Assembly: GCA_029834535.1 (NCBI GenBank)
Contig: JAQMWT010000042.1
Location: forward strand, 1 to 64,000
Length of the DNA: 64,000 nucleotides
Direction of reading: 5' to 3'
DNA from: Chrysophaeum taylorii
Lineage: Eukaryota; Sar; Pelagophyceae; Pelagomonadales; Pelagomonadaceae
Part shown: positions 955 to 56,710 of the stretch, piece after piece
Layout of the letters: every line of letters starts with the position of its first letter
How positions within the stretch are numbered: position 1 is the stretch's first letter
Notes under the pieces: generated by a model
What the model was told of the DNA's origin: nothing
The model's input: the letters and a program-made list of their open reading frames with translations, nothing else
Databases searched by the model: none
Position numbers and translations under genes: made by a program

Positions 955-1144
955 GTGTATGATTCATCTCTAACTAACATGTCCTTTACAGGTCTCTCAA
1001 ATACCGACTGGATCAAACTCTGCGAAACTTATGCTGGTTTCTTGTACACATTTCTAAATCTGGAATCACAAGACAAGCCCGCGCTCTCTATGTGGCCTCA
1101 ATTAAAGAAGATACATGCACTTACTGCACATCCTAATAAACTAC
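955..1144 (+). pseudogene. Gag remnant of the divergent copia element
   Basis: The readable stretch resembles residues of the copia copy 1 Gag around its NLES and KPAL motifs. It runs straight into the following LTR. It is a fossil fragment with no independent function that can be inferred. Confidence 0.55.
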
Positions 1145-1458
1145 TGCAGAGAAATCTGCTGCCTCTTACCCTTATCCGTCCGTCGAGAACGTGATCTCTT
1201 CCTTACCCCTTCTTCTTCCTTTCTACACAACCTAATAGTCCTCTGATTTGTGCCTACGCTCATCATCATGGTCTAGCGCGTCCCGAGGTATGTAGCACTA
1301 TACACTTAACCTTTCTCGTGTAGTTCTAGATGCCGCCTGTCGTGTTCTGAGGATATAGGGAACATAACCTTTCATTCCCCGAATTAACCTTCCTGACGTT
1401 CACGATGAGACGGGATGGTTTCGCAGGTGACTTACCACTGCTTGCTAAATGCTCAGCA
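1145..1458 (+). repeat. 5' LTR of copia copy 1 (314 bp)
   Basis: It starts TGCAGAGAAATCTGC and ends in CA just before the primer-binding site. It matches the LTRs at 44859-45171 and 56396-56710 (both reverse strand) and the partial LTR at 8908-9109. It is closest to the 44859-45171 copy. Confidence 0.85.
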
Positions 1459-1472
1459 GGTTATGGGCCCAG
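1459..1472 (+). other. Primer-binding site of copia copy 1
   Basis: GGTTATGGGCCCAG follows the LTR with no gap and is complementary to the anticodon arm of initiator tRNA-Met. The leader from 1473 to 1977 that follows shows no gene. Confidence 0.85.
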
Positions 1473-1977
1473 GCGGGTCCCTGAGAAACCATGTGTCAAC
1501 ATGCACGTAACCTATGGGTATTGGACTGTCACCGCGCCAGCCCAGCCTCGCCATGTGACACGCTTGTCAATAAATCGCCATTACCATTGGGCTGTATATA
1601 ATATCTTTTTGCACACGTGATCGTGTAACCTTGTGTGCACCTGTTCATAGCATCGTATTGTCATGTCAATGTTGATGTGTGTGTAATTGGCTAACCTGTA
1701 CTCTTGCACACATGTTATGGAATATTTTGGGTACGTCCACTCGTACATTCCGTGGCAATGCACTTAACAAGCTCCTTGAGAGCACCAAAACTAACCAGCT
1801 GCCTGAGTGACTACGCTTAGCGACACTACTCTGGACTCACAGCTTGCACAGTCGTCATATAGACACATTTTCCATCGAAAACGATGAGTGTACATAGACA
1901 CCGATAGACAGACCCCCTTAGAATGTCTAGACAGTGTCAACTGCGTGACTGAACCCACAGGTTCCCCGTCAACTGCT

Positions 1978-4780
1978 ATGGCAGAACACGCAGCACGAGC
2001 CGCACCCAAGGCGATCACAGGTGCGGATATATTGAAGCTCGAAGCTCCTGTAGTTGAGTTTCTTAACGAAGGAAATCGGTTTCAGCTTCAGAACCGCAAG
2101 GTATCCTTGCAAATCAAGCATATCAAGCAATTACTACGGTCCAGTCATGCCGATGCTTTCCTCGAGTACGACTCGTATGAAGCATATACTCGGTCATGCA
2201 AGGACTACGAAATCCTCCGGAATCAAATTCTCGATCGCGTTTTCCTGGAATGGAAGACCGATAGGGCTGCTGATCTCCGTTTAGCTGTTGATGAATTGCC
2301 CCCTGAGTATCAGGAATGGCATTTCACCAACGAAGCTTTCCCCCCACTTACCTGATGCAGAAGTAGCTCAGCTAACTACTGTCTGTTACGACTATGAAGT
2401 CAAGGCATTACGTCCTGAAATCAATGCTCGTTTCTTAGAAGAGGAACGAATCTTAAATCGCGCGCACCCGAAGGCACTAGCTTTCGACACTCGTGTTCGT
2501 GCCCCGGTTACCATGTTTTCGTTAACTGCAGCTGACTGGCACACTTACCAGAACACGTACGCTACATTCTTGCATACTTACTTCAATCTTGAAAGTGTTG
2601 GAAAACCGGCACTTGCGGCCTGGCCCGCCATCAATGAGGTATACAACAAAAGTTATTTACCCAACAAGGCTCGAGCTATTATGCTCATCGCCTTTAGTCA
2701 CTACGAGTCTGTTACGACTACTGATGTGTCTTATTTGAAACAGCAATTTAACTCTGTTGTTTATAATCCTAACTGGTATGTCCATGTATTTATCGAAGCT
2801 GTCCTAGCATTTAGGCAAATCTCTTACCAACTTAACCAGGAAGAGACTGACCTTCAATTCGACTTTGGCACTCTTTGCAGAAAAATCTATGAAGAGATAC
2901 ATCGGCATTATGCCGATAATACCAGCAACAACCGTTACGATCGTGGTTGGGTAGATTGGTGTTATATGTACGAAACCCGATCTTCATCTCGACCTGTGCC
3001 AGAAGCTGAACGATTGTGTCACCCTACCAACCCTAGCTACATTTTAGAATACGCATTAGACCTTTACAATGTCGTATCAAATGGGTCGAACAAAAGACGC
3101 TTAGAACGCCCTGTTTCTTGGCAACCCTATGTCGAAGGTTTATCATCTCAACCAAAGCCAAAGTTACTACTTACACATACTTTGGACTCATCAGACAAAA
3201 GTCTGACTCAAACTGCTAACACACTCGCCTTCATCACTTCGTCCCAACCTGGTACATCTTCCACGTTTAATGCTAGACGCTTGCGTAACTCAAATGATGC
3301 TCGCCAGCCTTTCTCTCGCAGCGATTTATCGTATTATCGTCCTGGTGATTCTTACGTCACCAAGAAAACTGCCGGACAGTCCCATGACCGTCCAATTTAC
3401 CCCCGCACTTTTGACAGGTCCTCTCGGTCTAACATGAAATTATTAGATCGAACAAACCACACCTTAAACACCCTGCGAGAACAGTGTAGCGAACTCACGA
3501 AGCATGTGACAGATAATGATACCACGGCTCAGCTACAACAGAATATCAACAAGTTATTTGAGACTCTATTACAATCAGCTGACATTCTGTCAACGACATC
3601 TACTGAGGACAACAGTAGTTTACTTCGTCTAAACGAACAGCTCATGTTTGCAGAAAACATCATTTATGATGTAGACGTTCATCTATCCTCGACCGAAAAG
3701 TCGTTAAACTACGTGGAGCCACAACACCATACTGTCGTTACTGCTCCCACCCCAACAACAACTCCTCCTACTACAAACACACAGGGTAATCCTTCCAATA
3801 CTGTGTCTAACCTCTTTACCGCTTCCGCCATCTCGGCTTTACCACCAGCATTATTGTCCTCGCTATCTTCACAGGTCCAATCTGCCCTCAACCTACCATC
3901 ACAAGCCGAAACCAAAAGGGATGCCGATCATACTTCGCTATCGTCATTTGACGAAAAGCACGGCATGGCTGATGAGGCTGACGAACCATCACCACCTGTT
4001 CAACCGATCATTATTCCAACGAATCTGTTATTGCTGAAGAACTTCTTTACAGCCAGCCTCTCCACTACTTGCCCACATTCGGAAAACGCCTTCCTCACCA
4101 ACTACATGAAGGTAAACAGTGTCCCTCCACATTGCTCTTTTCTATATTTTGACTCTTGTGCTACCATCTCATTGATGTCCACCTACGATTTCGCAATACC
4201 CAATCATATAATTCCATTGGACTCCAAAATACGCGCCGACCATTGGACTCCAAAATACGCGCCGATTGTTATTCAGACGGCAACAGGACAACAACGGGCA
4301 TCACACATGATGTTAACACGCAACATCGTTATTCCCCTACCAGATCATCCACAAGTTGGCTATGTTAAGATCGACTTCGCTTTATGTCTTCAGCCAGTGC
4401 ATGACCGACATCTCGCTATCCTGAGCATGCTCGAGTGGAACCAGACGAATCTTACCACCGTGTTCAACGATCGAGCTGAGCCAAAGCTCAGCGCTGTCAC
4501 GAGCCGCATAGACAAAGATGTACGTATACCCATACACTATGTAGCAGCTAATTTACCCGCTCTCCCTTGTCTCACTTACAACATCGCGCGCGACAAGCGG
4601 CTGGAACTTCGCTCCCTTGCATTTCCCCTCAAGCGATACCATGAAAACAGGGATCTACTGGCATACTACAATTACCTACTCCAACGAGTTTTACCAGATC
4701 GGCCGTGGATTCGCCCTTTGGTTCTCAATCTTCGGAAACAGAACAAATTTGTTCAGCAAAATACGCAGCCATTAACTTGA
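1978..4780 (+). pseudogene. Copia copy 1 Gag and protease region
   Basis: The first ATG of the conserved frame is at 1978; the same ATG is present in copy 2. The N-terminal part is a helical Gag without zinc knuckles. A Ser/Thr/Pro-rich linker follows and contains the SLNY site at 3691-3712. Near 4147 there is a retropepsin active-site motif, DSCAT, in the setting LYFDSCATISLMS, matching the usual DSGAT pattern. The region would supply the particle shell and the polyprotein protease. It looks broken, with about two or three breaks; copy 2 is in similar state. Confidence 0.75.
3691..3712 (+). other. SLNY site 1, Gag to protease border (copy 1)
   Basis: The peptide STEKSLNY lies at the end of Gag. 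It shares the TxxSLNY pattern and the core bases gtcgttaaacta with four other sites in this family, all at domain borders. Confidence 0.6.
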
Positions 4781-4795
4781 CTACTCTCACGCCCA

Positions 4796-7700
4796 GTGTT
4801 TCTCTCACAAGAGTCCAATCTCCGCAAACCCTCTGTCATGTTACTTTGTTCTGGTTTGTCAACTCCGGCGTTCCTGTCTCAAGCCACTAATGACTTAGGC
4901 TTAAATATCAATGTGAAAGTTGTTGTTGAGTCTGATGATACGCTTGTTCGTATGTTACGCCACCGTTTTCCTACTGTACTGTTATTTGAATGTGCACCAG
5001 AGGAAAGGCGCACATTCTATTGTGATATAATTGAGATCACTCCTCCCTGCACAAACAGGAATTTACTAAAACAGCAAAAGTCGGAAGACTTACACAGCCT
5101 GCTGGACGATTCTCTTTTCGACAGCATGCTGTCTGTCATCAAGCTACTCCAGCCCTTGGTACTACTGGCTGAGATGACGCCTCCGCATAAGTACTGTCAT
5201 CAAGACCACATCACTGTGGCCAACCTTATCCATACTACACTTGATTACTGTGTCTATGTTGTTGATAGGCTCCCGACCTACCTCTTTGGCGACTACCAAT
5301 TTAGAGAAAGGTGGATATGCATCGCACGCAGATATTCTACTGGACCAATTAAACTATCATCGTGGCCCATCCTCCATCCACGCCCCTTCCTAAAGATCGT
5401 GGATGATCTACAAGCTATTCCCAAGCGCCTTTGGCTACCTAACCACATATCCAAAGACTGGATCCGGGTGTTCCCCGATCCTCCATATATACCCGTTCCT
5501 AAAACGTTTGCACCTTACTCTCGCACAGGTTCTGTTCAGCTTACTATGGCTGACCTTGAATCCCTCAATATGTTACTGCTTCGCCTTCACTCACAACAGG
5601 CTCACGAGCAACGTACTCACTCTGTTCAATCCGAGTGTACTTACCATCAGTTGTGCTTTAAACGCTCCTCTATGGAGCCATCACCCAATGCAACACATCC
5701 TATACACGTCAAGATTTTTACAATCCTCTATAACGTGTTTGCAAGCTTACATACTAACTCACCCACTCCTGTGTCCTATTACATAACCGTTTTCGAAACT
5801 AACCAACCGTCACACAGGTTATTACTTACAACCTCATCAACATCACACAACTCCTACTTCTTAACTGGTGGCCACCATTCCGACGGCGACCTCACCATAG
5901 AGAACGCCACCACAAAAAACTCCACTCCCATCAACGCCTTTGGGAGCACGTATACGTTCACTGCTTCCGACATCCCCCGCGACCGGGACAGGTCCATATA
6001 TCTGGAGCCGTTTATAGGTTACTTGTGGATAGTCCAAGCCCTTCCCCCAGTTGGCTCCGCTACCACCTATGGCACCGCCATACAAAACCTCGTGTCCAGA
6101 TGCGCTCTCGTGATGCCTGGCTGCCTTACCTACAAGGCCACCGACAACTCTTTCGATTACAAGGATTCTCTTTTTGCTCTGGAAGATCATCACCTATCTC
6201 ATAGTCGCTATATAGGGTACCTTCGTGGAAGTGACCGCAAACTCGGCTCTAAAATCCACTCAATGCTTGCTCCATTGCCAACCGTCCGAGGGTATGCCAA
6301 TATTATTTTACTCGACCCTCGCAACGGGAAATTACGCTACCCCACTCGACCGGAGTTGATTCGTGCTAACAACCACACCAAACAACAGGAATCTTTCCTT
6401 TTGTCTCTACGCCATGACCTTTGCTGTGACATGCTCAGCAATGCTCTGCCTGCCGGTACGTACAGCACTCTGTACAAGCACCTTTCGCTCATCGTCGCCG
6501 ATATTAAATCCCTTATGTTGGACCCTACCTTCCAACATACTGCTGCCGTGACGAAGAAATCCTATGTATCCAATTTCATGACCGTCGACCAAGCCTCCAC
6601 CACGTGCAGCACAGATACCTTGTCTTTGGCACAATCTTTTATGATGTATATTTCCAGCAACTGCTTGACCGAAATGTCGTTAAACTATATATCGTCGTCC
6701 TACGAAGATACTCTCGCTACTCGTGATAATGAGGATGCACCTCCAAGTGACCCTGCTGTGCACCAGGATGACGACGCACCGCCTTCCCCTGCCTTAGACA
6801 CCGAACTCAAGTTCGATGTTCGGCGCAAACGGCACATTCCCGCTCATCCAATTCCTCGTAAGTCCCTCGCACACGGATCCACCGAATATCTCAATGCCAA
6901 AGAACGTGCTAATCGCTTTCACCGGGTGCATCACCGCCCCGACAACGTTGCTGCCAAGGCCCCCAACGTACTTGCTCGCCCTGGATTCTCTGCTTCTGAC
7001 ATACCATATCGCGACTTATGCACCGACTGCATCGCACACAACAAGCGCCACCCGCACAAGCATTTCAATGCGACCATGCCTTCTCTTGAGCAAACCCACA
7101 AAGCCGGTGAAGTCTGGGCGTGCGACGGCGGCTATGTGACCATCCCATCCGAATGGGGAGGCTTCACACATATCATCGTCTTCAAGGAACTCATTTCGAA
7201 ATTTCTCTTGGTGTACTTTACACGCACCACCAACGCCAAGGAGTTCACTCAAGCTCTGCATTTTGTGTATGACTTCTGTCGTACACAACTCAATGTGCAC
7301 ATGTGCACCCTCTACTCCGATGCATTCAAGCCTTACTTTAGCCAGCACATTACCTCCCCGTACCGCGTCGATAAGGGCATTCAACTCGTTGCCTTCCCGT
7401 CATACATGCACCACTTTAACCTTGAAGTTGAGTCTGCCATCGGTTTCATCGCCTCCGCCTCCTCAACTCGCCTTCGTTCTCTCCTTAATGCTCACTATCG
7501 TGGCGCCAAGATCGTGGAACCCGCTATCATGTTCCCATGGGCGGTGATACACACCGTTCAAAGCTATAACCTTCTCCCGAACGCCACGCTCGAGCGCATT
7601 CATCATGCTATTCTGAGTCCGCAACAGCCACTCTACAACCAACTCAGCACTCCCCAACACGATATGCTCAAGATTTTTGGCGCTGAATGTTACCTCCGAT

Positions 7701-8611
7701 TGGAGCCCCATGAACACCACAAGTGGGGACCGTGCCGCCGCAAATACCTGTATATCTGTTGCGCCAACGCACAAAACCCGCTCGTCTCCCCACGCGTCGA
7801 CCATCTCGCTGACGTCGTCCTCAACCCTGAAAACGGACAAACTCGTGTTTCGTCCAAGCTGCAATTCCTCTACATGTTGCAGCATCCTACTCCTGATCCT
7901 GAATTAGCTCCTCCGCCACATGCTCCTTCCGCGCCTTTCTCGCTCACACCCCACACCACTATGCAAGACCATGTCATTCAGAGGGGGACAAGGACTTCTC
8001 ATCCTCAGAGGGGGCACTCCCCACCTCCTTCAGCTCCTCCTTCTTCGTCCCCTACTCCGGCCTCTTCTCCCTCTTCTGACGCTACCGCCGACGAATCTGG
8101 CTCTATGTCACCGCCGCCCTTGCTTCCTTCTTACAAAGACCTTTTTGCACAAGATGACCTCATTCTTGTTCCAGGTTCCAAAAAACCTAACACTCGCAAG
8201 GCCACTTCTATGAAAACTATCCGAGCCCGGTTACAAGCGTCTACTATTGGTGCTTACAAAGCCGCTGGTGGCAAGCTCGCCGATTTCCGCTGGGATCTTC
8301 GCCACCACTTTCTTACGTTCAAGTCTCCCGCCCTCTCCGCCCTTCATCTCCGTGGTGGTATCCTCTGGTCTGCTATCTGCTCAGAGGGGGAACATGCGTT
8401 GTTAGCTCGTCTTCTTCTCCCGTTGCGTACTGACTTACTTGCCCGCTACCCGCACGTCGATGGTTACTTCGCCCACGCCAAGTGCGCGTCCAGCATCCCA
8501 GCTGCAACCTTTTTAACTGCTGATGGTTCACCTACGTGCCCTATTCCTCAGCCCCTTTTATCTGCGTTCACTGAACACGCTGCTGCCTTCGGCACTTCTT
8601 CCTTGCAATGC
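4796..8611 (+). CDS. Copia copy 1 Pol: C5-methyltransferase-like domain plus integrase
   Basis: The long open frame starts with a methyltransferase-like domain (about 4838-6510). It has a Dnmt3-like motif I (LCSGLSTPAF), an acidic motif II (VVVESDD), a PPC motif IV near 5042-5050, an E-containing motif VI-like LLAEMTPP, motif VIII (QFRERWICIARR), a long target-recognition-like region, a motif IX-like LLDPRNGKLRYPTRPEL and a motif X-like LSNALPAGT. SLNY site 2 follows at 6667. The integrase then shows an HH-CC finger (CTDC), D in ACDGGYV (about 7120), D in LYSDAFKPYF and E in LEVESAIGF. A Pro/Ser-rich linker comes after. The last residues of the frame beyond 8611 come from the LINE-like fragment. 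Confidence 0.8.
6667..6688 (+). other. SLNY site 2, methyltransferase to integrase border (copy 1)
   Basis: The peptide LTEMSLNY lies about 55 codons after the motif X-like segment of the methyltransferase and before the integrase zinc finger. It has the same TxxSLNY core as site 1. Confidence 0.6.
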
Positions 8612-8907
8612 ATCCGCCCTCCCGGCGTAGGTTGGCACCTATTCGCCTCCCGGGCGGGCCGGTTGGCAGCCGGAACGTTCGCAGTGGGACGGGGTATGGC
8701 CGGGGGGCGCAGACGGAAGGTCATCGACGAGTTGATTGTCAGTCACATCGCGGTCTCCTCGTCGCATGGCGACAAGCTTGATGGTCACTCTCCGCCGACC
8801 GACCTTTCGGCGCTCCTCGTCTACAGGCCCGTGATTCCGGACTGGCTCCTGTCGGTCCGGCCTGGCTCCCATGCTCGGGAGAGGTCTGAAGTTAGTTAGT
8901 TAGTTAG
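8612..8907 (-). mobile_element. LINE-like fragment with (TTAG)n tail at a chimeric junction
   Basis: The element body lies here with its TTAG-repeat tail at the right, near 8892-8906, so in this copy it reads along the plus strand; the minus label of the copies at 13590 and 14575 refers to the opposite orientation. Sequence matches those copies over about 290 bases. It is 5'-truncated. The left flank is copia pol and the right flank is a copia LTR, with no target-site duplication, so the fragment marks a rearrangement rather than one clean insertion. Strand in this entry should be read as uncertain, with plus preferred. Confidence 0.6.
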
Positions 8908-14931: not shown

Positions 14932-14941
14932 GAACAACTTA

Positions 14942-44858: not shown

Positions 44859-45171
44859 TGCAGAGCATTTAGCAAGCAGTGGTAAGTCACCTGGGAAACC
44901 ATCCCGTCTCATCGTGAACGTCTGGAAAGGTTAATTCGGGGAATGAAGGTTATGTTCCCTATATCCTCGGAACAGGACAGGCGGCATCTAGAACTACACG
45001 AGAAGGTTAAGTGTATAGTGCTACATACCTCGGGACGCGCTAGACCATGATGATGAGCGTAGGCACAAATCAGAGGACTATTTGATTGTGTAGAAAGGAA
45101 GAAGAAGGGTAAGGAAGAGATCACGCTCTCAACGGACGGATAAGGGTAAGATGCGGCAGATTTCTCTGCAC
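44859..45171 (-). repeat. 3' LTR of copia copy 2 (313 bp)
   Basis: It reads TGCAGAGAAATCTGC at its coding-strand start and ends in TGCA. The coding strand has GAGGGGG directly before it, a typical polypurine tract (plus strand ccccctc at 45172-45178). It is closest to the LTR at 1145-1458. Confidence 0.85.
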
Positions 45172-45407
45172 CCCCTCGAGATGTCGTAAGCGCAAGGTGC
45201 GACTGTAGAGCATCTCTCGAGAAAGATGATGATGAAGAAAAAAGGAAGGAATACGGTCTTGATGGTGACAGAGGTCACATACGAAGCATCAAGAGTATAG
45301 AAGGGTCTTAGGACTTGGACTTGGACTTGGTGGAACTGAGAGTCGATTTGACCCTTTTGAACAGAACATTAAGAAACACAGATACAACAGACAGTGTGTT
45401 AGGATTA

Positions 45408-45950
45408 TTAATCATCGTCAGCTTCTGCTGTAAGGTGGTGAACACCAATAGCTGAACGATGTGGTGCCAAGAGAAGGGTGAGTGCAAGTAGAGCATTCAG
45501 TATGGATGGCGATAGAGAATCTAGTTGAAAGGCGTCCAGTTGGTTTTCCAACAAAAAGGTTGGACTTGGCGAACGAAGAACGAAGATAGAAGAGTCTTCA
45601 GATTCACACGAGAGCGGACGGAATGCTCTGAAGCATGAGAGCAACTTGTCACGTAGATGAAGGAGGTGATCGTCCGGGGAGGAGTAGTTGGTAGCATGTT
45701 GATCATGAGCGGTGAGTATTAAGCGAGACAACAGCTCTGTGATCTTGTACGGTGTATAAGTAACACGTGGGTGTTGGCTGTAGGAGGGAAGAGCCGGTTC
45801 TCCAGGGAGGTGTTTCCTGGAGTTGGTCGACTTGTTGGCACAAGAAGTCGGAATCAACAAGCGAAGCAGATGGCGTAGGTAACGGTGGCGAAGATATCTC
45901 CAGAGTAGCGTCTAGCGTGGAGTGTGAGTAGTTTAACGACGTTTCGGTCA
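45408..45950 (-). CDS. Copia copy 2 extra 3' segment B, headed by SLNY site 5
   Basis: The open stretch begins at a TTG codon with LTETSLNYSHS and so has no ATG of its own at that point. Overlapping frames are open; one (about 45860-45408) gives about 150 Ser/Leu-rich residues. I recognise no domain. Its position after RNase H is where some copia elements carry an additional, sometimes envelope-like, gene. Confidence 0.4.
45928..45950 (-). other. SLNY site 5 (copy 2)
   Basis: The peptide LTETSLNY is encoded with the same core bases (gtcgttaaacta on the minus strand) as the other sites. It heads the last coding segment. Confidence 0.6.
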
Positions 45951-46106
45951 ACGTTAAAAAAAAAAGAAGAGGTGCAGGAAGCCTTAATGTTCTGCCTGAA
46001 CATAAGTGTGGCCGAACATTACATCCCGGAGTAATAGCGGTTCTGTATCATCAGAGGATGATGCGTAGTTGTTAAGATGTTGTACACGATCAGATAACAG
46101 TATGAA

Positions 46107-47098
46107 TCACATGGTGGTATTTGGCGGCTTGAACATAGCCTGAGTTTTACGAGCTTGTGTTTGCTCGAGCGTTACAAGAAAGTTAAGATGCTCCAGGTGC
46201 ATCTGAGTAATAAGCCGAAGATCCAGTGCCAATGGTAATTGAGTACTGGAGTCTGTGGCTGCATCGGTTACTGATAAGACTAAATGAGCAAGTGACGAAT
46301 GTTGCGTTAGATTTCTGGTCAAGAGAATATGTAGCTCCTTTGGCAAATGATACGTGCGTATGATGGTTGCGCGTATATGACCAGCTGAGCACCCGTTACA
46401 GGAGGGTTGGAAGGAAGTAGCATTACGTGCACATACGTTAGGTTGTATGGGCGCCTGATCGGTGTTGTGACAAGCACAACAAATGTTAGTGGTGATAGTT
46501 GAGATGGGAATATGACCATTCTGCTTGTGGTCATCTGTGTTAAGGTGACTCAGCACTTCGGTGGGGAGTTCACTACGTGCTTGTGACTTCGAATTATATG
46601 TGGTAGAAAGCAAGAAATGTAGGATGACAGGATGAAACGTTCACGTTTGGGGCCTCTGTAGCCGCCAATAGAAGTAATAGCAGGAGCAGCTTCCCAAAAT
46701 GTAGTAATGGGTAGGCGCATGGATATGAACGTCGTAAGTTCCACAAACAGTAAAGAGTCAGCAGATTCATATATCGAGTTGAGTGCCGTAGAGATTTCCG
46801 CTCGCATAACAGAAGAGAGGAAGGGCGTGGCAGGAGTACGGAAACTCTCAGAACGAGAGAATCCTCGTTCAATCAGGGCAAAATCCATATTGAGGCCATC
46901 GCTGGCGTCGGTGAGACAGTAGCAGCCTGGGAGGTAGTAGGAGTGACAGTGGTTATGGGTTGTCGCTTTTGAAACAACTTGGGAGAGATGCCACGGCCAC
47001 GGGAGTGTCAAGAAGACATGAACAACACTCGCCCGTGTACAAAAAAAATGTGGCAAGAGAAGGAAAGGCCAGGGGTAGTTTAACGTCGTTGCGGTCAC
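46107..47098 (-). pseudogene. Copia copy 2 extra 3' segment A, headed by SLNY site 4
   Basis: The segment begins at a GTG codon with VTATTLNYPWPFLLLPHFF, a hydrophobic stretch directly after SLNY site 4. Later it has a Cys-rich patch (CCACHNTD, then CARNATS and CNGCSAGH) which might be a metal-binding or disulfide-rich module. No known domain is recognised. It is broken, with about one break. Confidence 0.4.
47075..47098 (-). other. SLNY site 4, RNase H to segment A border (copy 2)
   Basis: The peptide VTATTLNY lies a few codons beyond the end of RNase H. It is the most diverged of the five sites, with Thr in place of the first Ser. Confidence 0.55.
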
Positions 47099-47113
47099 TA
47101 GAGTTAGGTATCT

Positions 47114-47980
47114 TCAATCCTGTAAAGGATTGTCGTCAGAGGCATGATGCATGCCGAGTAGAGAGCGAAATGTGGAGAACTCAGCAGCAAGTGGCTTTGT
47201 AAAACCATCCGCCACGTTCAGCTTGCCGGGAACATGATGGACTCGTATTTTCTGTAGCGAGATGTACTCACGGATTTTAAACCATCTGGTCGACAGTGCC
47301 TTGGATCGAGAGGGCCCATCTGGGTTATTAGAGGTGTGAACAGCGGCAGCATTGTCAGACAAAAGAGGTAGGCTTCTGATGAAGCGCATATCTTCGGCAA
47401 TTGGGTTGTCATTGTCATCAATGTCAACAGGGTCAGCGGTGTTCTCACCATTAGCATTGTTGACGTAGAAGGTGGGGTTGACGACAAAGGAGAGTTCCAA
47501 CAGCAGCTTGCGTAGCCAAACAGCTTCATCAGCACAAATACTGAGGGCAATCAACTCAGCTTCGTGAGTTGAGCAGGAGACAATCGGTTGAAGTTTGCTT
47601 TTCCAACCAATAAGGCAGTTGAAAAGATAGAAGACAAACCCGGTGGTAGATTTCCTACCTTCCTGTGCTAAGGAAGGGGCATTGTCAGCGTCAACCATGG
47701 CAACTCAGGGGTCAAACTGTCCAGTAGCTACATCCTGCGGTTGGTAGTCGACCACAGTGGATAGATCAATTCGATTAGCGGAGACAGTGCGAAGGTGAGC
47801 TTCAATGGCATTACCTTTAGGATGGAACCAGAGGCGAAGTGAGCGGTTTTCCGGTTTCTTGAGGTAGCGAAGCAGATGCTCTAGCATATGGACGTGAACA
47901 TACGTGCGTGCATGCATACCACGCGAACATCTGCCCAAGGCTTGCGAGAAGTCAGGTCTGCAGGCAACTTGCATGAACAC
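47114..47980 (-). pseudogene. Copia copy 2 RNase H
   Basis: Motifs of copia RNase H are visible: CRPDFSQALGRCSRGMH and LRYLKKPENRSL, then GRKSTTGFVFYLFNCLIGWKSKLQ, STHEAELIALS and VHHVPGKLNVADGFTKPLA. The last two correspond to the usual STAEAEYIA and NxADxFTKPL. It is continuous in function with the reverse transcriptase upstream. Lightly broken. Confidence 0.82.
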
Positions 47981-48019
47981 CAGCTTGCCAAGGAGGGTGG
48001 CAAAGTGCGAGTTGATGTA

Positions 48020-51000
48020 CTACTCTGCTTCAGTGCTGGGAGTGCCATCTTTATACTTGAAGGACGATGACATAGGATATTTAAGCGGGGTCAGTTGCTG
48101 CAAGACTGGGTGATCAGCGAAGAGTTCATCCAGCTTGGCTTGCACATCCAGAGAAATGGAGCCGTCAGATGTGCGACACACACGCATGCCTAGGAGGGTA
48201 TGGACAGGTTCAAACTGCTCTACAGCATACCGTTTGTGGAGGGCATCCTGTAAGTCTGTACGAAGAGGGTCGTCATTGGACACAATAACAATGTCGTCTA
48301 CAGACAGACTGCATACGACGAACTTAGCATGTGCGGATACTCGAGCATATAGGCAAGAGTCCGAATGCAGGCGTTTGTAACCAAGGCTACGGAAGAAGCC
48401 GTCTATCTCTTTGTTCCAAAGGGATGGTGATTGCCTAAGTCCATAAAGTGACTTCAGCAGTTTCGGTAGACGTCGGCCCTTGTACTTAGCGTCATCGGGG
48501 TCGATAAGCTTGATGCCGTCTGGTAACTGAACATAGACGTTGGCATCAATGTCAGACTGAACGAAGGCGTTCGGGACGTCTGCATGGTAGACAGCCAATT
48601 GCTTGTATGCTGCAATAGCTAGTAGTACCCGGATTGCGGTCATAGTGGCCATGGGGCTGAAGGTACCAAAGAAATCGGCGCCAAGAGATGCTAGGAAGCC
48701 ACGTAGTACGAGGCGAGCCTTGTGCTTAACGTATTTGCCTGCAGAGTCTGTTTTAATCTTCAGCACCATCTTGCTGTCAATAGGACGAGAGACACCGTCG
48801 GGTAAGGAAAGTTTGAAGCAGCCAAAGCGGATAATGTCGTGGAGTTCCTTGGCGATGGCCTTGAGGTAGGCGTGCCTGTTTTCAGGCGACAAACCGTGGA
48901 GGCACTTAAGTTTATATTCGTCAATGGAAACGTCCGCTTCTTGGACCTTATATTCGTCAGGACCAACAGTGGCTGGTGAATTATAGTTTAGCGACGTTGC
49001 GGTCGAGGCAGTGTGCGCAACTTCGGAATAAGCGGAAACAGCGTCAGTAGGAGTAGTAGGGGCAGATTGCAGTTGGATATGGATAGTAGGGTCGGTACGT
49101 AAGACCTGGGTGATAAACTCTGTAGAGACCAGAAGGTATTCCTCCAAGTCAGCCAGAGATGCAGATGTAGCGCCAAACTCGGATGAGTTGTGATCAATAA
49201 AGCTGATCGGTGCCAGGTACGTAAGTGCATATTGTAAGGAAGAAGTGCCGAAGGCAGCAGCGTGTTCAGTGAACGCAGATAAAAGGGGCTGAGGAATAGG
49301 GCACGTAGGTGAACCATCAGCAGTTAAAAAGGTTGCAGCTGGGATGCTGGATGCGCACTTGGCGTGGGCGAAGTAACCATCGACGTGCGGGTAGCGGGCA
49401 AGTAAGTCAGTGCGCAACGGGAGAAGAAGACGAGCTAACAACGCATGTTCCCCCTCTGAGCAGATAGCAGACCAGAGGATACCACCACGGAGATGAAGGG
49501 CGGAGAGGGCGGGGGACTTGAACGTAAGAAAGTGGTGGCGAAGATCCCAGCGGAAATCGGCGAGCTTGCCACCAGCGGCTTTGTAAGCACCAATAGTAGA
49601 CGCTTGTAACCGGGCTCGGATAGTTTTCATAGAAGTGGCCTTGCGAGTGTTAGGCTGTTTGGAACCTGGGACAAGAATGAGGTCATCTTGTGCAAAAAGG
49701 TCTTTGTAAGAAGGAAGCAAGGGCGGCGGTGACATAGAGCCAGATTCGTCGGCGGTAGCGTCAGAAGATGGAGAAGAGGCCGGAGTAGGGGACGAAGAAG
49801 GAGGAGCTGAAGGAGGTGGGGAGTGCCCCCTCTGAGGATGAGGAGTCGTCCTTGTCCCCCTCTGAATGACATGGTCTTGTATAGTGGTGTGGGGTGTGAG
49901 CGAGAAAGGCGCGGAAGGAGCGTGTGGCGGAGGAGCTAGTTCAGGATCAGGAGTAGGATGCTGCAACATGTAGAGGAATTGCAGCTTGGACGAAACACGA
50001 ATTTGTCCGTTTTCAGGGTTGAGGACGACGTCAGCGAGATGGTCGACGCGTGGGGAGACGAGCGGGTTTTGTGCGTTGGCGCAACAGAGATACAGATATT
50101 TGCGGCGGCACGGTTCCCACTTGTGGTGTTCATGGGGCTCCAATAGGAGGTAACATTCAGCGCCAAAAATCTTGAGCATATCGTGTTGGGGAGTGCTGAG
50201 TTGGTTGTAGAGTAGCTGTTGCGGACTCAGAATAGCATGATGAATGCGCTCGAGCGTGGCGTTCGGGAGAAGGTTATAGCTTTGAACGGTGTGTATCACC
50301 GCCCATGGGAACATGATAGCGGGCTCCACGATCTTGGCGCCACGATAGTGAGCATTAAGGAGAGAACGAAGGCGAGTTGAGGAGGCGGAGGCGATGAAAC
50401 CGATGGCAGACTCAACTTCAAAGTTAAAGTGGTGCATGTACGGCGGGAAGGCAATGAGTTGAATGCCCTTATCGACGCGGTACGGGGGGGTAATGTGCTG
50501 GCTAAAGTAAGGCTTAAATGCATCGGAGTAGAGGGTGCGCATGTGCACATTGAGTTGTGTACGACAGAAGTCATACACAAAATCCAGAGCTTGAGTGAAC
50601 TCCGTGGCGTTGGTGGTGTGTGTAAAGTACACCAAGAGAAATTTCGAAATGAGTTCCTTGAAGACGATGATATGCGTGAAGCCCCTCCATTCGGATGGGA
50701 TGGTCACATAGCCGCCGTCGCACGCCCAGACTTCACCGGCTTTGTGGGTTTGCTCAAAAGAAGGCTTGGTTGCATTGAAATGCTTGTGCGGGTGGCGCTT
50801 GTTGTGTGCGATGCAGTCGGTGCATAAGTCGCGATATGGTATGTCAGAAGCAGAGAATCCAGGGCGAGCAAGTACGTTGGGGGCCTTGGCAGCGACGTTG
50901 TCGGGGCAGTGATGCACCCGGTGAAAGCGATTAGCACGTTCTTTGGCATTGAGATATTCGGTGGATCCGTGTGCGAGGGACTTACGAGGAATGGGATGAG

Positions 51001-53038
51001 CGGGAATGTGCCGTTTGCGCCGAACATCGAACTTGAGTTCGGTGTCTAAGGCAGTGGAAGGCGGTGCGTCGTCATCCTGGTGCACAGCAGGGTCACTTGG
51101 AGGTGCATCCTCATTATCACGAGTAGCGAGAGTATCTTCGTAGGACGACGATATATAGTTTAACGACATTCCGGTCAAGCAGTTGCTGGAAATAGACATC
51201 AAAAAAGATTGTGCCAAAGACAAGGTATCTGTGCTGCACGTGGTGGAGGCTTGGTCAACGGTCATGAAGTTGGATACATAGGATTTCTTCGTCACGGCAG
51301 CAGTATGTTGGAAGGTAGGGTCCAACATAAGGGATTTAATATCGGCGATGATGAGCGAAAGGTGCTTGTACAGAGTGCTATACGTACCGGCAGGCAGAGC
51401 ATTGCTGAGCATGTCACAGCAAAGGTCATGGCGTAGAGACAAGAGGAAAGACTCCTGTTGTTTGGTGTGGTTGTTAGCACGAATCAACTCCGGTCGAGTG
51501 GGGTAGCGTAATTTCCCGTTGCGAGGATCGAGTAAAATAATATTGGCATACCCTCGGACGGTTGGCAATGGAGCAAGCATTGAGTGGATTTTAGAGCCGA
51601 GCTTGCGGTCACTTCCACGAAGGTACCCTATATAGCGACTATGAGATAGGTGATGATCTTCCAGAGCAAAAAGAGAATCCTTGTAATCGAAAGAGTTGTC
51701 GGTGGCCTTGTAGGTAAGGCAGCCAGGCATCACGAGAGCGCATCTGGACACGAGGTTTTGTATGGCGGTGCCATAGGTGGTAGCGGAGCCAACTTGGGGA
51801 AGGGCTTGGACTATCCACAAGTAACCCATAAACGGCTCCAGATATATGGACCTGTCCCGGTCGCGGGGGATGTCGGAAGCAGTGAACGTATACGTGCTCC
51901 CAAAGGCGTTAATGGGAGTGGAGTTTTTTGTGGTGGCGTTCTCTATGGTGAGGTCGCCGTCGGAATGGTGGCCACCAGTTAAGAAGTAGGAGTTGTGTGA
52001 TGTTGATGAGGTTGTAAGTAACGACCTGTGTGACGGTTGGTTAGTTTCGAAAACGGTTATGTAATAGGACACAGGAGTGGGTGAGTTAGTGCGTAAGCTG
52101 GCAAACAAGTTATAGAGGATTGTAAAAACCTTTACGTGTATAGGATGCGTTGCATCGGGTAGTGGCTCCCTAGAGGAGCGTTTAAAGCACAACTGATGAT
52201 AAGTACATTCGGGTTGAACAGAGTGAGTACGTTGTTCGTGAGCCTGTTGTGAGTGAAGGCGAAGCAGTAACATATTGAGGGATTCAAGGTCAGCCATAGT
52301 AAGCTGAGCAGAACCTGTGCGAGAGTAAGGTGCAAACGTTTTAGGAACGGGGATATATGGAGGATCGGGGAACACCCGGATCCAGTCTTTGGATACATGT
52401 TTAGGTAGCCAAAGGCGCTTGGGAATAGCTTGTAGATCATCCACTATCTTTAGGAAGGGGCGTGGATGGAGGATGGGCCACGACAATAGTTTAATTGGTC
52501 CAGTAGAATATCTGCGTGCGATGCATATCCATCTTTCTCTAGATTGGTAGTCGCCACAGAGGTAGGTCGGGAACCTATCAACAACATCGACACAGTAATC
52601 AAGTGTAGTATGGATAAGGCTGGCCACTGTGATGTGGTCTTGATGACAGTACTTATGCGGAGGCGTCATCTCAGCCAGTAGTACCAAGGGCTGGAGTAGC
52701 TTGATGACAGACAACACGCTGTCGAAAAGAGAATCGTCCAGCATGCTGTGTAAGTCTTCTGTCTTATGCTGTTTTGGTAAATTCCTGTTTGTGCAGGGAG
52801 GAGTGACCTCAATTATATCACAATAGAATGTGCGCCTTTCCTCTGGTGAGATTAGGTGAAGGTGGTTAATAAAGGCGGGGAGAGATTTAAATAATAATAC
52901 AGTAGGAAAACGGTGGCGTAACATACGAACAAGCGTATCATCAGATTCAACAACAACTTTTACATTGATATTTAAGCCTAAGTCATTAGTGGCTTGAGAC
53001 AGGAACGCCGGAGTTGACAAACCAGAACAAAGTAACAT
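48020..53038 (-). CDS. Copia copy 2 Pol: methyltransferase, integrase, reverse transcriptase
   Basis: This is one open frame of 1672 residues. Methyltransferase-like motifs are LLCSGLSTPAFLSQATNDL at the start, VVVESDD, TPPCTNRN (about 52805-52782), LLAEMTPPHKYC, YQSRERWICIARR (motif VIII with the expected Q-x-R-x-R), LLDPRNGKLRYPTRPEL (motif IX-like) and LSNALPAGT (motif X-like). SLNY site 2 follows at 51155-51178. Integrase has VWACDGGYV, LYSDAFKPYF and FEVESAIGF (D, D, E). SLNY site 3 lies at 48983-49006. Reverse transcriptase shows KHKARLVLRGF, VYHADVPNAFVQSD, LKSLYGLRQSPSLWN and the active-site LSVDDIVIVS. The frame is unbroken over 5 kb. Confidence 0.88.
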   Translation of the reverse strand: MLLCSGLSTPAFLSQATNDLGLNINVKVVVESDDTLVRMLRHRFPTVLLFKSLPAFINHLHLISPEERRTFYCDIIEVTPPCTNRNLPKQHKTEDLHSMLDDSLFDSVLSVIKLLQPLVLLAEMTPPHKYCHQDHITVASLIHTTLDYCVDVVDRFPTYLCGDYQSRERWICIARRYSTGPIKLLSWPILHPRPFLKIVDDLQAIPKRLWLPKHVSKDWIRVFPDPPYIPVPKTFAPYSRTGSAQLTMADLESLNMLLLRLHSQQAHEQRTHSVQPECTYHQLCFKRSSREPLPDATHPIHVKVFTILYNLFASLRTNSPTPVSYYITVFETNQPSHRSLLTTSSTSHNSYFLTGGHHSDGDLTIENATTKNSTPINAFGSTYTFTASDIPRDRDRSIYLEPFMGYLWIVQALPQVGSATTYGTAIQNLVSRCALVMPGCLTYKATDNSFDYKDSLFALEDHHLSHSRYIGYLRGSDRKLGSKIHSMLAPLPTVRGYANIILLDPRNGKLRYPTRPELIRANNHTKQQESFLLSLRHDLCCDMLSNALPAGTYSTLYKHLSLIIADIKSLMLDPTFQHTAAVTKKSYVSNFMTVDQASTTCSTDTLSLAQSFLMSISSNCLTGMSLNYISSSYEDTLATRDNEDAPPSDPAVHQDDDAPPSTALDTELKFDVRRKRHIPAHPIPRKSLAHGSTEYLNAKERANRFHRVHHCPDNVAAKAPNVLARPGFSASDIPYRDLCTDCIAHNKRHPHKHFNATKPSFEQTHKAGEVWACDGGYVTIPSEWRGFTHIIVFKELISKFLLVYFTHTTNATEFTQALDFVYDFCRTQLNVHMRTLYSDAFKPYFSQHITPPYRVDKGIQLIAFPPYMHHFNFEVESAIGFIASASSTRLRSLLNAHYRGAKIVEPAIMFPWAVIHTVQSYNLLPNATLERIHHAILSPQQLLYNQLSTPQHDMLKIFGAECYLLLEPHEHHKWEPCRRKYLYLCCANAQNPLVSPRVDHLADVVLNPENGQIRVSSKLQFLYMLQHPTPDPELAPPPHAPSAPFSLTPHTTIQDHVIQRGTRTTPHPQRGHSPPPSAPPSSSPTPASSPSSDATADESGSMSPPPLLPSYKDLFAQDDLILVPGSKQPNTRKATSMKTIRARLQASTIGAYKAAGGKLADFRWDLRHHFLTFKSPALSALHLRGGILWSAICSEGEHALLARLLLPLRTDLLARYPHVDGYFAHAKCASSIPAATFLTADGSPTCPIPQPLLSAFTEHAAAFGTSSLQYALTYLAPISFIDHNSSEFGATSASLADLEEYLLVSTEFITQVLRTDPTIHIQLQSAPTTPTDAVSAYSEVAHTASTATSLNYNSPATVGPDEYKVQEADVSIDEYKLKCLHGLSPENRHAYLKAIAKELHDIIRFGCFKLSLPDGVSRPIDSKMVLKIKTDSAGKYVKHKARLVLRGFLASLGADFFGTFSPMATMTAIRVLLAIAAYKQLAVYHADVPNAFVQSDIDANVYVQLPDGIKLIDPDDAKYKGRRLPKLLKSLYGLRQSPSLWNKEIDGFFRSLGYKRLHSDSCLYARVSAHAKFVVCSLSVDDIVIVSNDDPLRTDLQDALHKRYAVEQFEPVHTLLGMRVCRTSDGSISLDVQAKLDELFADHPVLQQLTPLKYPMSSSFKYKDGTPSTEAE
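48983..49006 (-). other. SLNY site 3, integrase to reverse transcriptase border (copy 2)
   Basis: The peptide STATSLNYNS lies after the Pro/Ser-rich integrase tail and before the reverse transcriptase N-terminus. Confidence 0.6.
51155..51178 (-). other. SLNY site 2, methyltransferase to integrase border (copy 2)
   Basis: The peptide LTGMSLNYIS lies at the same place as the copy 1 site at 6667-6688. Confidence 0.6.
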
Positions 53039-53209
53039 GACAGAGGGTTCGCGGAGATTGGACTCTTGTGAGAGGAACCCTGGGCGTGAAAGTAGTCAAG
53101 TTAATGGCTGCGTATTTTGCCGAACAAATTTGTTCAGTTTCCGAAGATTGAGAACCAAAGGGCGAATCCACGGGCGATCTGGTAAAACTCTTTGGAGTAG
53201 GTAGTTGTA

Positions 53210-55876
53210 TTATGCCAGTAGATCCCTGTTTTCATGGTATCGCTTGAGGGAAAATGCGGGAGAACGAAGTTCGAGTTGCTTGTCGCGCGCGATGTTGTAA
53301 GTGAGACAAGGGAGAGCAGGTAAATTAGCTGCTACATAGTGTATGGGTATACGTGCATCTTTGTCTATGCGGCTCGTGACAGCGCTGAGCTTTGGCTCAG
53401 CTCGATCATTGAACACAGTGGTCAGGTTCGTCTGGTTCCACTCGAGCATGCTCAGGATAGCGAGATGTCGGTCATGCAATGGTTGAAGACTTAAAGCGAA
53501 GTCGATCTTAACATAGCCAACTTGTGGATGATCTGGTAGGGGAACAACAATGTTGCGTGTCAACATCATGTGTGATGCCCGTTGTTGTCCTGTAGCCGTC
53601 TGAATAACAATCGGCGCGAATTTGGAATCCAATGGAATTATATGATTGGGTATTGCAAAATCGTACGTGGACATCAATGAGATGGTAGCACAAGAGTCAA
53701 AATATAGAAAAGAGCAATGTGGAGGGACACTGTTTACCTTCATGTAGTTGGTGAGGAAGGCGTCTTCCGAATGTGGGCAAGTAGTGGAGAGGCTGGCTGT
53801 GAAGAAGTTCTTCAACAATAACAGATTCGTTGGAATAATAATCGGTTGAACAGGTGGTGATGGTTCGTCAGCCTCATCAGCCATGCCGTGCTTTTCGTCA
53901 AATGACGATAGCGAAGTATGATCGGCATCCCTTTTGGTTTCGGCTTGTGATGGTGTGTTGAGGGCAGATTGGACCTGTGAAGATAACGAGGACAATAATG
54001 CTGGTGGTAAAGCCGAGATGGCGGAAGCGGTAAAGAGGTTAGGCACAGTATTGGAAGGATTACCCTGTGTGTCTGTAGTAGGAGGAGTTGCCTTTGGGGT
54101 GGGAACAGTAACAACAGTATGGTGTTGTGGCTCCGCGTAGTTTAACGACTTTTCGGTCGAGGATAGATGAACGTCTACATCATAAATGATGTCTTCTGCA
54201 AACATGAGCTGTTCGTTTAGACGAAGTAAACTACTGTTGTCCTCCGTAGATGTCGTTGACAGAATGTCCGCTGATTGTAATAGAGTCCCAAATAACTTGT
54301 TGATATTCTGTTGTAGCTGAGCCGTTGTATCATTATCTGTCACATGCTTCGTAAGTTCACTACACTGTTCTCGCAGGGTGTTTAAGGTGTGGTTTGTTCG
54401 ATCTAATAATTTCATGTTAGACCGAGAGGACCTGTCAAAAGTGCGGGGGTAAATTGGACGGTCATGGGACTGTCCGGCAGTTTTCTTGGTGACGTAAGAA
54501 TCACCAGGACGATAATACGATAAATCGCTGCGAGAGAAAGGCTGGCGAGCATCATTAGAGTTACGCAAGCGTCTAGCATTAAACGTGGAAGATGTACCAG
54601 GTTGGGACGAAGTGATGAAGGCGAGTGTGTTAGCAGTTTGAGTCAGACTTTTGTCTGCTGAGTCCAGCGTTTTTGTAAGTAGTAACTTTGGGTTTGGTTG
54701 AGATGATAAACCTTCGACATGGGGTTACCAAGAAACAGGGCGTTCTAAGCGTCTTTTGTTCGACCCATTTGATACTACATTGTAAAGATGTAGTGCGTAT
54801 TCTAAAATGTAGCTAGGGTTGCCAACCGTAGGGCGACACAATCGTTCAGCTTCTGGCACAGGTCGAGATGAAGATCGGGTTTCGTACATATAACACCAAT
54901 CTACCCAACCACGATCGTAACGGTTGTTGCTGGTATTATCGGCATAATGCCGATGTATCTCTTCATATATTTTTCTGCAAAGAGTGCCAAAGTCGAATTG
55001 AAGGTCAGTCTCTTCCTGGTTAAGTTGGTAAGAGATTTGCCTAAATGCTAGGACAGCTTCGATAAATACATGGACATACCAGTTAGGATTATAAACAACA
55101 GAGTTAAATTGCTGTTTCAAATAGGACACATCAGTAGTCGTAACAGACTCGTAGTGACTAAAGGCGATGAGCATAATGGCTCGAGCCTTGTTGGGTAAAT
55201 AACTTTTGTTATATACCTCATTGATGGCGGGCAAGGCCGCAAGTGCTGGTTTTCCAACACTTTCAAGATTGAAGTAAGTATGCAAGAATGTAGCATACGA
55301 GTTCTGATAAGTGTGCCAGTCAGCAGCAGTTAGCGAAAACATGGTAACCGGGGCACGAGCACGAGTGTCGAAAGCTAATGCCTTCGGGTGCGCGCGATTT
55401 AAGATTCGTTCCTCTTCTAAGAAACGGGCATTGATTTCAGGACGTAATGCCTTGACTTCATAGTCGTAACAGACAGTAGCTAGCTGAGCTACTCCTGCAT
55501 CAGGTAAGTGGGGGAAAGCTTCGTTGGTGAAATGCCATTCCTGATACTCAGGGGGCCATTCATCAACAGCAAAACGGAGATCAGCAGCCCAATCGGTCTT
55601 CCATTCCAGGAAAACGCGATCGAGAATTTGATTCCGGAGGATCTCGTAGTCCTTGCATGACCGAGTATATGCTTCGTACGAGTCGTACTCGAGGAAGGCA
55701 TCGGCATGACTGGACCGTAATAATTGCTTAATATGCTTGATTTGCAAGGATACCTTGCGAGTCTGAAGCTGAAATCGATTTCCATCGTTAAGAAACTCAA
55801 CTACAGGAGCTTCGAGCTTCAATATATCCGCACCTGTGATCGCCTTGGGTGCGGCTCGTGCTGCGTGTTCTGCCAT
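53210..55876 (-). pseudogene. Copia copy 2 Gag and protease region
   Basis: The start is the ATG at 55876, encoding MAEHAARAAPK as in copy 1; the open frame extends upstream only through non-ATG codons. The helical Gag matches copy 1 almost residue for residue. SLNY site 1 follows at 54137-54160, then the retropepsin with FDSCATISLMS near 53705-53670. It is broken, with about one or two breaks. Confidence 0.8.
54137..54160 (-). other. SLNY site 1, Gag to protease border (copy 2)
   Basis: The peptide STEKSLNYAE is at the same place as in copy 1 (3691-3712). Confidence 0.6.
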
Positions 55877-56381
55877 AGCAGTTGACGGGGAACCTGTGGG
55901 TTCAGTCACGCAGTTGACACTGTCTAGACATTATAAGGGGGTCTGTCTATCGGTGTCTATGTACACTCATCGTTTTCGATGGAAATATGTATATTTGACG
56001 ACTGTGCAAGCTGTGAGTCCAGAGTAGTGTCGCTAAGCGTAGTCACTCAGGCAGCTGGTTAGTTTTGGTGCTCTCAAGGAGCTTGTTAAGTGCATTACCA
56101 TGGAATGTACGAGTGGACGTACCCAAAATATTCCATAACATGTGTGCAAGAGTGTAGGTTAGCCAATTACACACATATCAACATTGACATGACAATACGA
56201 TACTATGAACAGGTGCACACAAGGGTACACGATCACGTGTGCAAAAAATATGCTATATACAGCCCAATGGTAATGGCGATATATTGACAAGCGTGTCACA
56301 TGTCGAGGCTGGACCGGCGCGGTAACAGTCCAATACCCATAGGCTACGTGCATGTTGACACATGGTTTCTCAGGGACCCGC

Positions 56382-56395
56382 CTGGGCCCATAACC
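56382..56395 (-). other. Primer-binding site of copia copy 2
   Basis: GGTTATGGGCCCAG on the minus strand directly follows the 5' LTR. The leader between it and gag (56381-55877) shows no gene. Confidence 0.85.
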
Positions 56396-56710
56396 TGCAG
56401 AGCATTAGCAAGCAGTGGTAAGTCACCCGGGAAACCACCCCGTCTCATCATGAACGTCTGGAAGTATTTAATTCGGGGAACGAAAAGGTATGTTCCCTAT
56501 ATCCTCAGAACACGACAGGCGGCATCTAGAACTACACGAGAAAGGTAAAGTGTATAGTGCTACATACCTCGGGGCGCGCTAGACCATGATGATGAGCGTA
56601 AGCACAAATCAGAGGACTATTTGATTGTGTAGAAAGGAAGAAGAAGGGGTAAGGAAGAGATCACGTTCTCGACGGACGGATAAGGGTAAGAGGCAGCAGA
56701 TTTCTCTGCA
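56396..56710 (-). repeat. 5' LTR of copia copy 2 (315 bp)
   Basis: It has the same ends as the other copia LTRs. In its 3' half it matches the partial LTR at 8908-9109 better than its partner at 44859-45171. Confidence 0.85.

Follow-up and report, generated by a model that had tools for sequence, protein, structure and literature searches.

Methyltransferase domain of a copia family and its relatives

We analyzed the first 64,000 nucleotides of contig JAQMWT010000042.1 of Chrysophaeum taylorii (referred to here as the window; contig C42 in our search of the 70.8-Mb genome assembly of 697 contigs) and found that a copia retrotransposon family, here called family A, carries a segment at the front of its pol region that is, judged by homology, almost certainly a very diverged member of the C5-cytosine methyltransferase family. 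The window holds two copies of family A, copy 1 on the forward strand and copy 2 on the reverse strand. The assignment comes from two intermediates, a second copia family of the same genome (family B) and a transcriptome protein (P0001). The predicted domains are located as follows.

4835..6510, + strand: predicted C5-methyltransferase domain of copy 1, motifs I–X; placed by motif positions and by homology through P0001 and family B
51335..53041, − strand: predicted C5-methyltransferase domain of copy 2, motifs I–X; placed by its motifs and by 42% identity to P0001 over 351 amino acids

A preliminary description of the window had recognized this segment from motifs alone and proposed a check against the Pfam profile DNA_methylase (PF00145), with the lack of a significant match as grounds for giving the idea up. 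In that check neither copia open reading frame (ORF) gave a DNA_methylase match at E <= 10, in a scan that is incomplete above E 0.1, where HMMER filters discard most matches. For the two window copies alone the idea thus failed, and this outcome was overturned solely through their relatives. In fact, the claim would stand on short motifs if only the window were considered, because direct profile searches fail. Searches for homologous proteins with copy 2 alone, and with family B, returned nothing at E <= 0.001. Pattern matches arose in viral contigs and prokaryote genomes, and none of them was confirmed as a relative.

Family B, whose motifs read PCQ and ENV, was reached by a PF00145 search of the genome in which 123 of the 474 candidates were scored. 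Its sequences match PF00145 with up to 39.8 bits (Pfam cut-off 22) and the dcm model TIGR00675 at E 3.8e-9 (36.6 bits, under the model cut-off of 100.65). Against PDB the family B profile has one match at E <= 1, which is a cytosine methyltransferase (E 0.061). When copy 2 was aligned with one family B sequence, motifs I to X all fell in register with a score of 64, which was reached by none of 500 shuffles of this alignment (mean 10.9, standard deviation 5.8, maximum 37). Eighteen control sequences were also aligned to family A, namely pieces of window ORFs including gypsy ORFs, two host methyltransferases and reversed family B, some of these controls being related; none exceeded z 1.6, the host DNMT being the highest. 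In the comparisons with family B itself, a kinase ORF reached z 2.7 and reversed B reached z 4.6; we ascribe the second value to self-comparison. Moreover, in a very small search space, a family A profile placed 9 of 11 family B sequences above the HMMER inclusion line; the match to at least two of these runs in two collinear blocks. Positions that do not vary across 8 family A and 6 family B sequences include a Gly in motif I, the PC of motif IV, the Glu in motif VI, the second motif VIII Arg, the motif IX Glu and A-x-P in motif X. Among the window ORFs, family B profiles did not score copia family A above background.

We then searched a database of 5.8 billion sequences with the joint A+B profile, which recovered one protein, P0001, among 4849 scored candidates (E 8.6e-71). 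This protein begins with its own methionine and carries the source label mmetsp, which we take to stand for the Marine Microbial Eukaryote Transcriptome project. By BLASTP it shares 42% identity with copy 2 over 351 amino acids (E 1e-82) and 25% with one family B sequence over 293 amino acids (E 2e-7). In Pfam at E <= 10 it matches PF00145 alone (E 4.4e-4), with 20.2 bits, narrowly under the cut-off of 22. P0001 spans motifs I–VIII, with PPC and the motif VI Glu present, and the register of motifs IX–X relies on the A-B alignment. In addition, a profile of family A plus P0001, with family B left out, scores 10 of 11 family B sequences at E 3.5e-8 to 1e-4 (next ORF 0.42), and a profile of family B only recovers P0001 at E 6.9e-10. 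Finally, the joint A+B profile matches seven distinct PDB sequences at E <= 10, all of them C5-methyltransferases, with a best E of 5.1e-4 and the motifs in register in both alignments shown. Profiles were built from copies without stops in the domain (17 rows for family A only, 14 of 30 for family B, 8 A + 6 B for the joint profile and 8 A for the profile with P0001).

As a result, family A is connected with accepted PF00145 members through family B, P0001 and the PDB matches of the A+B profile, and the C5-methyltransferase identity proposed in the preliminary description is borne out by this route. Its separation of the domain from those of the gypsy elements in the window also stands, with 0.8 bits for one gypsy ORF under the A+P0001 profile and alignment z of 0.2 and −0.7 for two gypsy ORFs. 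The Dnmt3 affinity that it suggested found no support, since no DNMT3 is among the seven PDB matches of the A+B profile. The diverged transcriptome relative P0001 suggests that the family extends beyond the genome of Chrysophaeum taylorii.

Several results weigh against the assignment. Besides the missing Pfam matches of both copies, copy 2 has no NCBIfam match at E <= 1, and the 17-copy family A profile of motifs I–VIII has one PDB match at E <= 10, which is no methyltransferase. The A-only profile scores family B weakly (best E 9e-4, other sequences 0.025 or worse). In hhalign the comparison of A with B has the right register and is weak, with 1 of 100 column shuffles reaching its score, because each family is too uniform; one run kept 18 of 30 family B rows and another 20 of 30 A and 11 of 30 B rows, stop-free and near full length. 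The A+P0001 profile has 26 PDB matches at E <= 10 without any methyltransferase, and with P0001 alone one methyltransferase is listed at E 0.49, outranked by 16 chains of which most are designed ankyrin repeat proteins. The host Dnmt2 and DNMT do not score with family A (z −0.1 and 1.6). AlphaFold models are uninformative, with a mean predicted local distance difference test score of 28.9 for two input sequences and 33.6 for three; the latter model has a low-confidence Rossmann-like order of strands and helices at its start and was excluded from the evidence.

Motifs of the domain

The motifs of copy 1 and the stretch between motifs VIII and IX are listed below.

4835-4873, + strand: motif I, VMLLCSGLSTPAF
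4922-4936, + strand: motif II, VVESD
5042..5050, + strand: motif IV, PPC, with the putative catalytic cysteine, kept in 25/25 full copies
5171..5182, + strand: motif VI, EMTP, with its Glu kept in 25/25 full copies
5291..5314, + strand: motif VIII, DYQFRERW, first Arg kept in 24/25 and second Arg in 25/25 full copies
5315..6334, + strand: target-recognition-like stretch from VIII to IX, under lower constraint (dN/dS, the ratio of nonsynonymous to synonymous rates, 0.26)
6335-6358, + strand: motif IX, RYPTRPEL, aligned with IRYATLNEI of family B
6434-6451, + strand: motif X, LSNALP, aligned with LANAVP of family B

Copy 2 has the same motifs on the reverse strand, with motif VIII reading QSRER, so that both window copies contain motifs I, IV, VI, VIII, IX and X in the order of PF00145-type enzymes together with the putative catalytic cysteine and glutamate. 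Copy 1 is short by 11 residues between motifs II and IV when compared with eight other copies displayed. The reading given earlier of motifs I, II, IV, VI, VIII, IX and X agrees with ours in place and order in both copies. The long stretch between VIII and IX was likewise found, at about 340 residues, and the position given for the domain, in copia pol between protease and integrase, is supported.

Structure of the two copia copies

The two copies were delimited as follows; LTR denotes long terminal repeat and RT reverse transcriptase.

1145..8600, + strand: copia copy 1, 5' LTR to mid-pol; nucleotide match to copy 2 of 95.3% (1145-4991) and 97.3% (4995-8609)
2285..4780, + strand: copy 1 gag-protease ORF, ending at the in-frame TGA 4778-4780, with CTA and the pol ORF directly after
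4781..8899, + strand: copy 1 pol ORF, with the predicted methyltransferase domain, integrase and then foreign repeat sequence
44859..56710, − strand: copia copy 2, LTR to LTR, with probable primer site and purine tract; stops in gag-protease
56396..56710, − strand: copy 2 5' LTR (TGCAGAG...CTCTGCA), with GGTTATGGGCCCA directly after it as the probable primer binding site
44859..45170, − strand: copy 2 3' LTR, preceded by the purine tract GAGGGGG
48020..53095, − strand: copy 2 pol ORF, with the predicted methyltransferase domain, integrase and RVT_2 reverse transcriptase
47114..47704, − strand: RNase H-like end of copy 2 pol, judged by eye from the ORF

Neither of the two window copies is intact. 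A repeat at 8601-8909 interrupts copy 1 pol in the RT region, and the gag-protease part of copy 2 is interrupted by TAA at 53210 and TAA at 54725. In copy 2 pol, Pfam gives a strong RVT_2 match (residues 1431-1651, E 7.7e-42) and a weak rve integrase match below the cut-off (784-866, E 0.0076); integrase thus precedes an RVT_2-type RT, which is the order of Ty1/copia elements. The LTR features also agree with a Ty1/copia element, namely TG...CA termini, the inferred primer site, the purine tract and flanks GATAA/GATAG, which look like a 5-bp target duplication differing at one of the five positions. The LTR pair of copy 2 is identical at 293 of 311 aligned bases (Kimura two-parameter distance 0.061).

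A third fragment of the copia family, with part of an LTR and the start of gag, lies at 8909-9909. The repeat of about 310 bases that interrupts copy 1 recurs with 95–99% likeness, being placed among other elements at 8601-8909, 13588-13956, 14566-14931 and 33126-33315 (about 190 bases in the last). Similarity to a gypsy copy ends at 44857 and copia copy 2 begins at 44859; copy 2 was probably inserted at or into that gypsy, because it starts where the gypsy similarity stops. Another element, at 60885-62738, matches zinc knuckle and GAG-pre-integrase weakly; the scanned part of it gave no methyltransferase match.

Copy number, position and conservation

Both families are present in many copies. 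Family A has at least 78 genome matches (72 of the 1604 candidates scored) and family B at least 107 (99 of 629 scored). With P0001 as the genome query we obtained 105 matches of 39–44% identity, 89 of which do not overlap the 72 family A places; some of these 89 are probably further family A copies, and others align further and may form a third family.

We further compared the positions of the domains with 150 listed RVT_2 places out of 1670 genome candidates, using the other strand or the other side as control and taking 72 of the 78 family A matches, all 105 P0001 matches and 40 of the 107 family B matches. In 46 of these 150 places a methyltransferase match precedes the RVT_2 on its own strand at no more than 6 kb. 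There are 24 pairs in which RVT_2 follows a family A domain on the same strand at 2.3–4.9 kb (control 1), and P0001 matches not listed for family A give 21 pairs (control 2). For family B there are 2 pairs (control 0), which is not a fair count, the 40 matches being the first 35 and 5 others picked by choice or for a listed RVT_2 on the same contig. The RT of one family B element is of copia type (RVT_2, E 2.9e-42). At least two copia families have the methyltransferase-like domain in this position, ahead of integrase and RT. In one pair compared, families A and B are 24% identical in the domain and 42% (95/227) in the RT, which means that the fusion either is old or happened twice.

The coding sequence of the domain is under purifying selection, as in retrotransposon-encoded DNMTs. 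Pooled dN/dS in family A is 0.129 for motifs I–VIII (25 copies), 0.259 for residues 236-480 of the stretch in copy 2 numbering (30 copies), 0.088 for motifs IX–X (30 copies) and 0.122 for the integrase (20 copies); of these 25, 30, 30 and 20 copies out of 30, 5, 3, 2 and 1 bear stops, and the stop codons were skipped. In family B the spread between parts of the domain is smaller, with 0.21, 0.29 and 0.28 for motifs I–VIII, the target-recognition-like stretch and motifs IX–X (30, 23 and 22 of 30 copies). All these values are averages over lineages of related and partly decayed copies, not independent tests. In family A, constraint on the catalytic parts matches that on the integrase. It is looser in the recognition-like stretch, which would be expected of a part that reads sequence. 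NALP, the PPC Cys and the motif VI Glu are unchanged in 25/25 full copies of family A; family B keeps the Cys in 29/30 and the Glu in 28/30 copies.

In-frame stop before the domain

In family A an in-frame TGA stands between gag-protease and the methyltransferase-pol frame in 26 of 27 readable copies (of 30). The stop itself is thus conserved at the gag-protease/pol border, as in gag-pol systems with readthrough. By hand count, the next codon is CTA in 16 copies, ATG in 6, ATA in 2, CTG in 1 and CCA in 1; TGA CTA is a known leaky stop context. In the family B copies looked at by eye, protease and methyltransferase share one frame behind gag.

Possible function and alternative explanations

Taken together, the data make it fairly probable that this Ty1/copia family has a C5-methyltransferase fused to the front of Pol, in the order methyltransferase-integrase-RT, which is made at low dose and methylates the element's DNA. 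In this scheme the TGA would turn the domain into a low-dose Pol product, the downstream ORF being reached by readthrough at TGA CTA and by reinitiation at TGA ATG. The enzyme would be packaged in the particle alongside RT and integrase and would methylate cytosines of new element DNA before or at integration, and the methylation might protect the copy or mark it for the host. As to the parts of the scheme, we consider it likely that the domain is catalytically active, and somewhat better than an even chance that it acts on element DNA. The distance between families A and B speaks for an association that is old and long-kept, and hence for an enzyme that is probably of use in the life cycle of the element.

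On the suggestion of the preliminary description that the enzyme may methylate its own copies, the substitution pattern gives indirect evidence, with no strong sign of CG methylation. CpG observed/expected is 0.96 in 30 family A copies and 1.04 in 30 family B copies. In family A the C-to-T differences between copies are 0.068 before G, 0.067 before T, 0.058 before C and 0.045 before A; in family B they are highest before G by a fifth (0.089), followed by 0.073, 0.063 and 0.036 in the same order. G-to-A differences, for the other strand, are more frequent after A than after C (0.070 vs 0.060 in A; 0.101 vs 0.064 in B), and TpG and CpA are slightly over-represented (1.13–1.23). No strong CpG depletion or CpG-specific decay is therefore seen in these copies. 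With CpG near 1 and CpG transitions at most slightly raised, this argues against lasting CG methylation of the copies.

The domain could also be derived from a methyltransferase and have lost catalysis, the kept fold binding nucleic acid or SAM (S-adenosylmethionine) and serving Pol for structure or targeting. The common FxGxGG is absent from motif I, and EMT takes the place of ENV in motif VI, changes that may alter binding of SAM or cytosine, and this reading would also suit the missing direct profile matches. Loss of catalysis would, however, be expected to relax the PPC Cys, the motif VI Glu and NALP, which do not vary among the full family A copies; PPC and the Glu recur in P0001, and family B keeps PCQ and ENV with its Cys and Glu nearly constant. 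We regard a domain without catalysis as unlikely. A lower probability still is given to an RNA m5C methyltransferase in the style of Dnmt2, which would modify the element RNA or the tRNA primer. The GGTTATGGGCCCA that directly follows the LTR appears similar to the complement of the anticodon arm of an initiator tRNA, the kind of primer site found in half-tRNA-primed copia elements, and the matching 15-mer TGGGCCCATAACCCA occurs at 9 genome places, which may be tRNA genes; no tRNA was detected in the 16 loci scanned out of 69. A LINE-borne (long interspersed nuclear element) methyltransferase is named as possibly RNA-acting in the passages of the 2018 authors considered here (PMC5890265). Against this reading, the stretch between motifs VIII and IX is short in Dnmt2, unlike the long one here. 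In its more specific form, in which the copia enzyme would modify the initiator-tRNA anticodon region or element RNA and so control reverse transcription, the idea agrees with a primer site that resembles a half-tRNA one and with copies that show no strong CpG decay, and we give it a slim chance; if true, a C5-methyltransferase would have been recruited for primer control and not for epigenetic escape.

A different fold with PPC and QSRER in order by accident would account for the missing direct matches, the weak hhalign result and the A+P0001 profile without a PDB methyltransferase. Against this stand the shuffles and the controls aligned to family A, and the transitive homology through P0001 and family B refutes it unless both are misread; such a coincidence is very improbable. 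The heavy nesting of transposons in the window might instead point to a recent chance fusion, or to a single element in which a host methyltransferase gene became nested. The domain has its place in common in many copies, however, the divergence of families A and B in domain and RT is not that of a recent event, and the host Dnmt2 and DNMT have no significant score against family A. This explanation was rejected for copy number and divergence, and its probability is close to nil.

Comparison with known elements

Capture of cytosine methyltransferases by LINE, DIRS and Gypsy retrotransposons is described in the passages of PMC5890265 considered here, where SymbioDIRS-Dnmt3 domains are reported to methylate CG in yeast and the Symbiodinium Copia superfamily is stated to be without any DNMT domain. 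SymbioDIRS-Dnmt3 and SymbioLINE-Dnmt, as presented there, resemble our family in having a methyltransferase inside retrotransposons, in many copies and under purifying selection, the DIRS one in the Pol ORF; they differ in being DIRS (with tyrosine recombinase) and LINE elements, not copia, and the DIRS domains group with Dnmt3. KnitGypsy-Dnmt3 of Klebsormidium nitens, from the same paper, is an LTR element with the methyltransferase in Pol and a reported Ka/Ks < 0.2, similar to our 0.09–0.26, but it belongs to the Gypsy superfamily, is Dnmt3-related and comes from another host lineage. In the part of PMC12344493 considered, one sentence names LTR Copia among DNMT3-embedding retrotransposons. 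This may be a slip, because the 2018 paper that it cites describes Gypsy, LINE and DIRS in the passages considered; moreover, the Copia carrier is called DNMT3 there, whereas the copia domain here is placed in the C5-methyltransferase family at large. DIRS elements with Dam-like adenine methyltransferases (PMC5890265, same passages) are mobile elements with a methyltransferase as well, and the transposon Sola1-1_Ec32 with a 4mC/6mA methyltransferase (PMC12477816, passage considered) has its own DNA methyltransferase, but both differ in enzyme class and element type.

No description of a copia element with a C5-methyltransferase was found at the level of titles and abstract openings, a scope outside which lie preprints and most subscription papers; the passages considered of PMC9998398, PMC12477816 and PMC6338049 contain none either. 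What is new here is the copia setting, the presence of at least two such families in one genome, the very diverged methyltransferase and the conserved stop before the domain. The many natural variants make it testable what a methyltransferase does for a retrotransposon, and standard profile searches can miss such domains.

Other methyltransferases and ORFs

Gypsy elements at 14733-16301, 23512-25362 and 43195-44857 of the window carry their own, different C5-methyltransferase domain. PF00145 matches the first two below its cut-off (E 9e-4 and 4e-3), and the third was assigned by similarity and motifs only. One of these domains has at least 152 genome matches (150 of the 709 candidates scored). 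The gypsy and copia domains are alike in having C5-methyltransferase motifs within an LTR element of the same genome. They differ in superfamily, with no detectable closeness between them; by ORF order, the gypsy domain lies directly upstream of RT and the copia domain directly upstream of integrase, and the gypsy motif I contains GAGGS.

Elsewhere in the genome, a host ORF classed by eye as Dnmt2-like lies at 1498-2580 of locus L001 (PF00145, E 4e-19), and a large host DNMT with motifs CSGTEAP, TSC and ENV lies at 1006-3537 of locus L002 (PF00145, E 8e-18). Beside the former, at 691-2316 of L001 on the reverse strand, there is a match to Chlorophyll a/b-binding protein (E 1.2e-13), which points to a photosynthetic alga as the probable host; a dinoflagellate-type spliced leader was looked for with up to one mismatch and not found. 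In the window, the ORF at 34101-35621 resembles a mitochondrial dehydrogenase kinase (BCDHK_Adom3, E 1e-13) and contains an EF-hand (EF-hand_5, E 6e-6).

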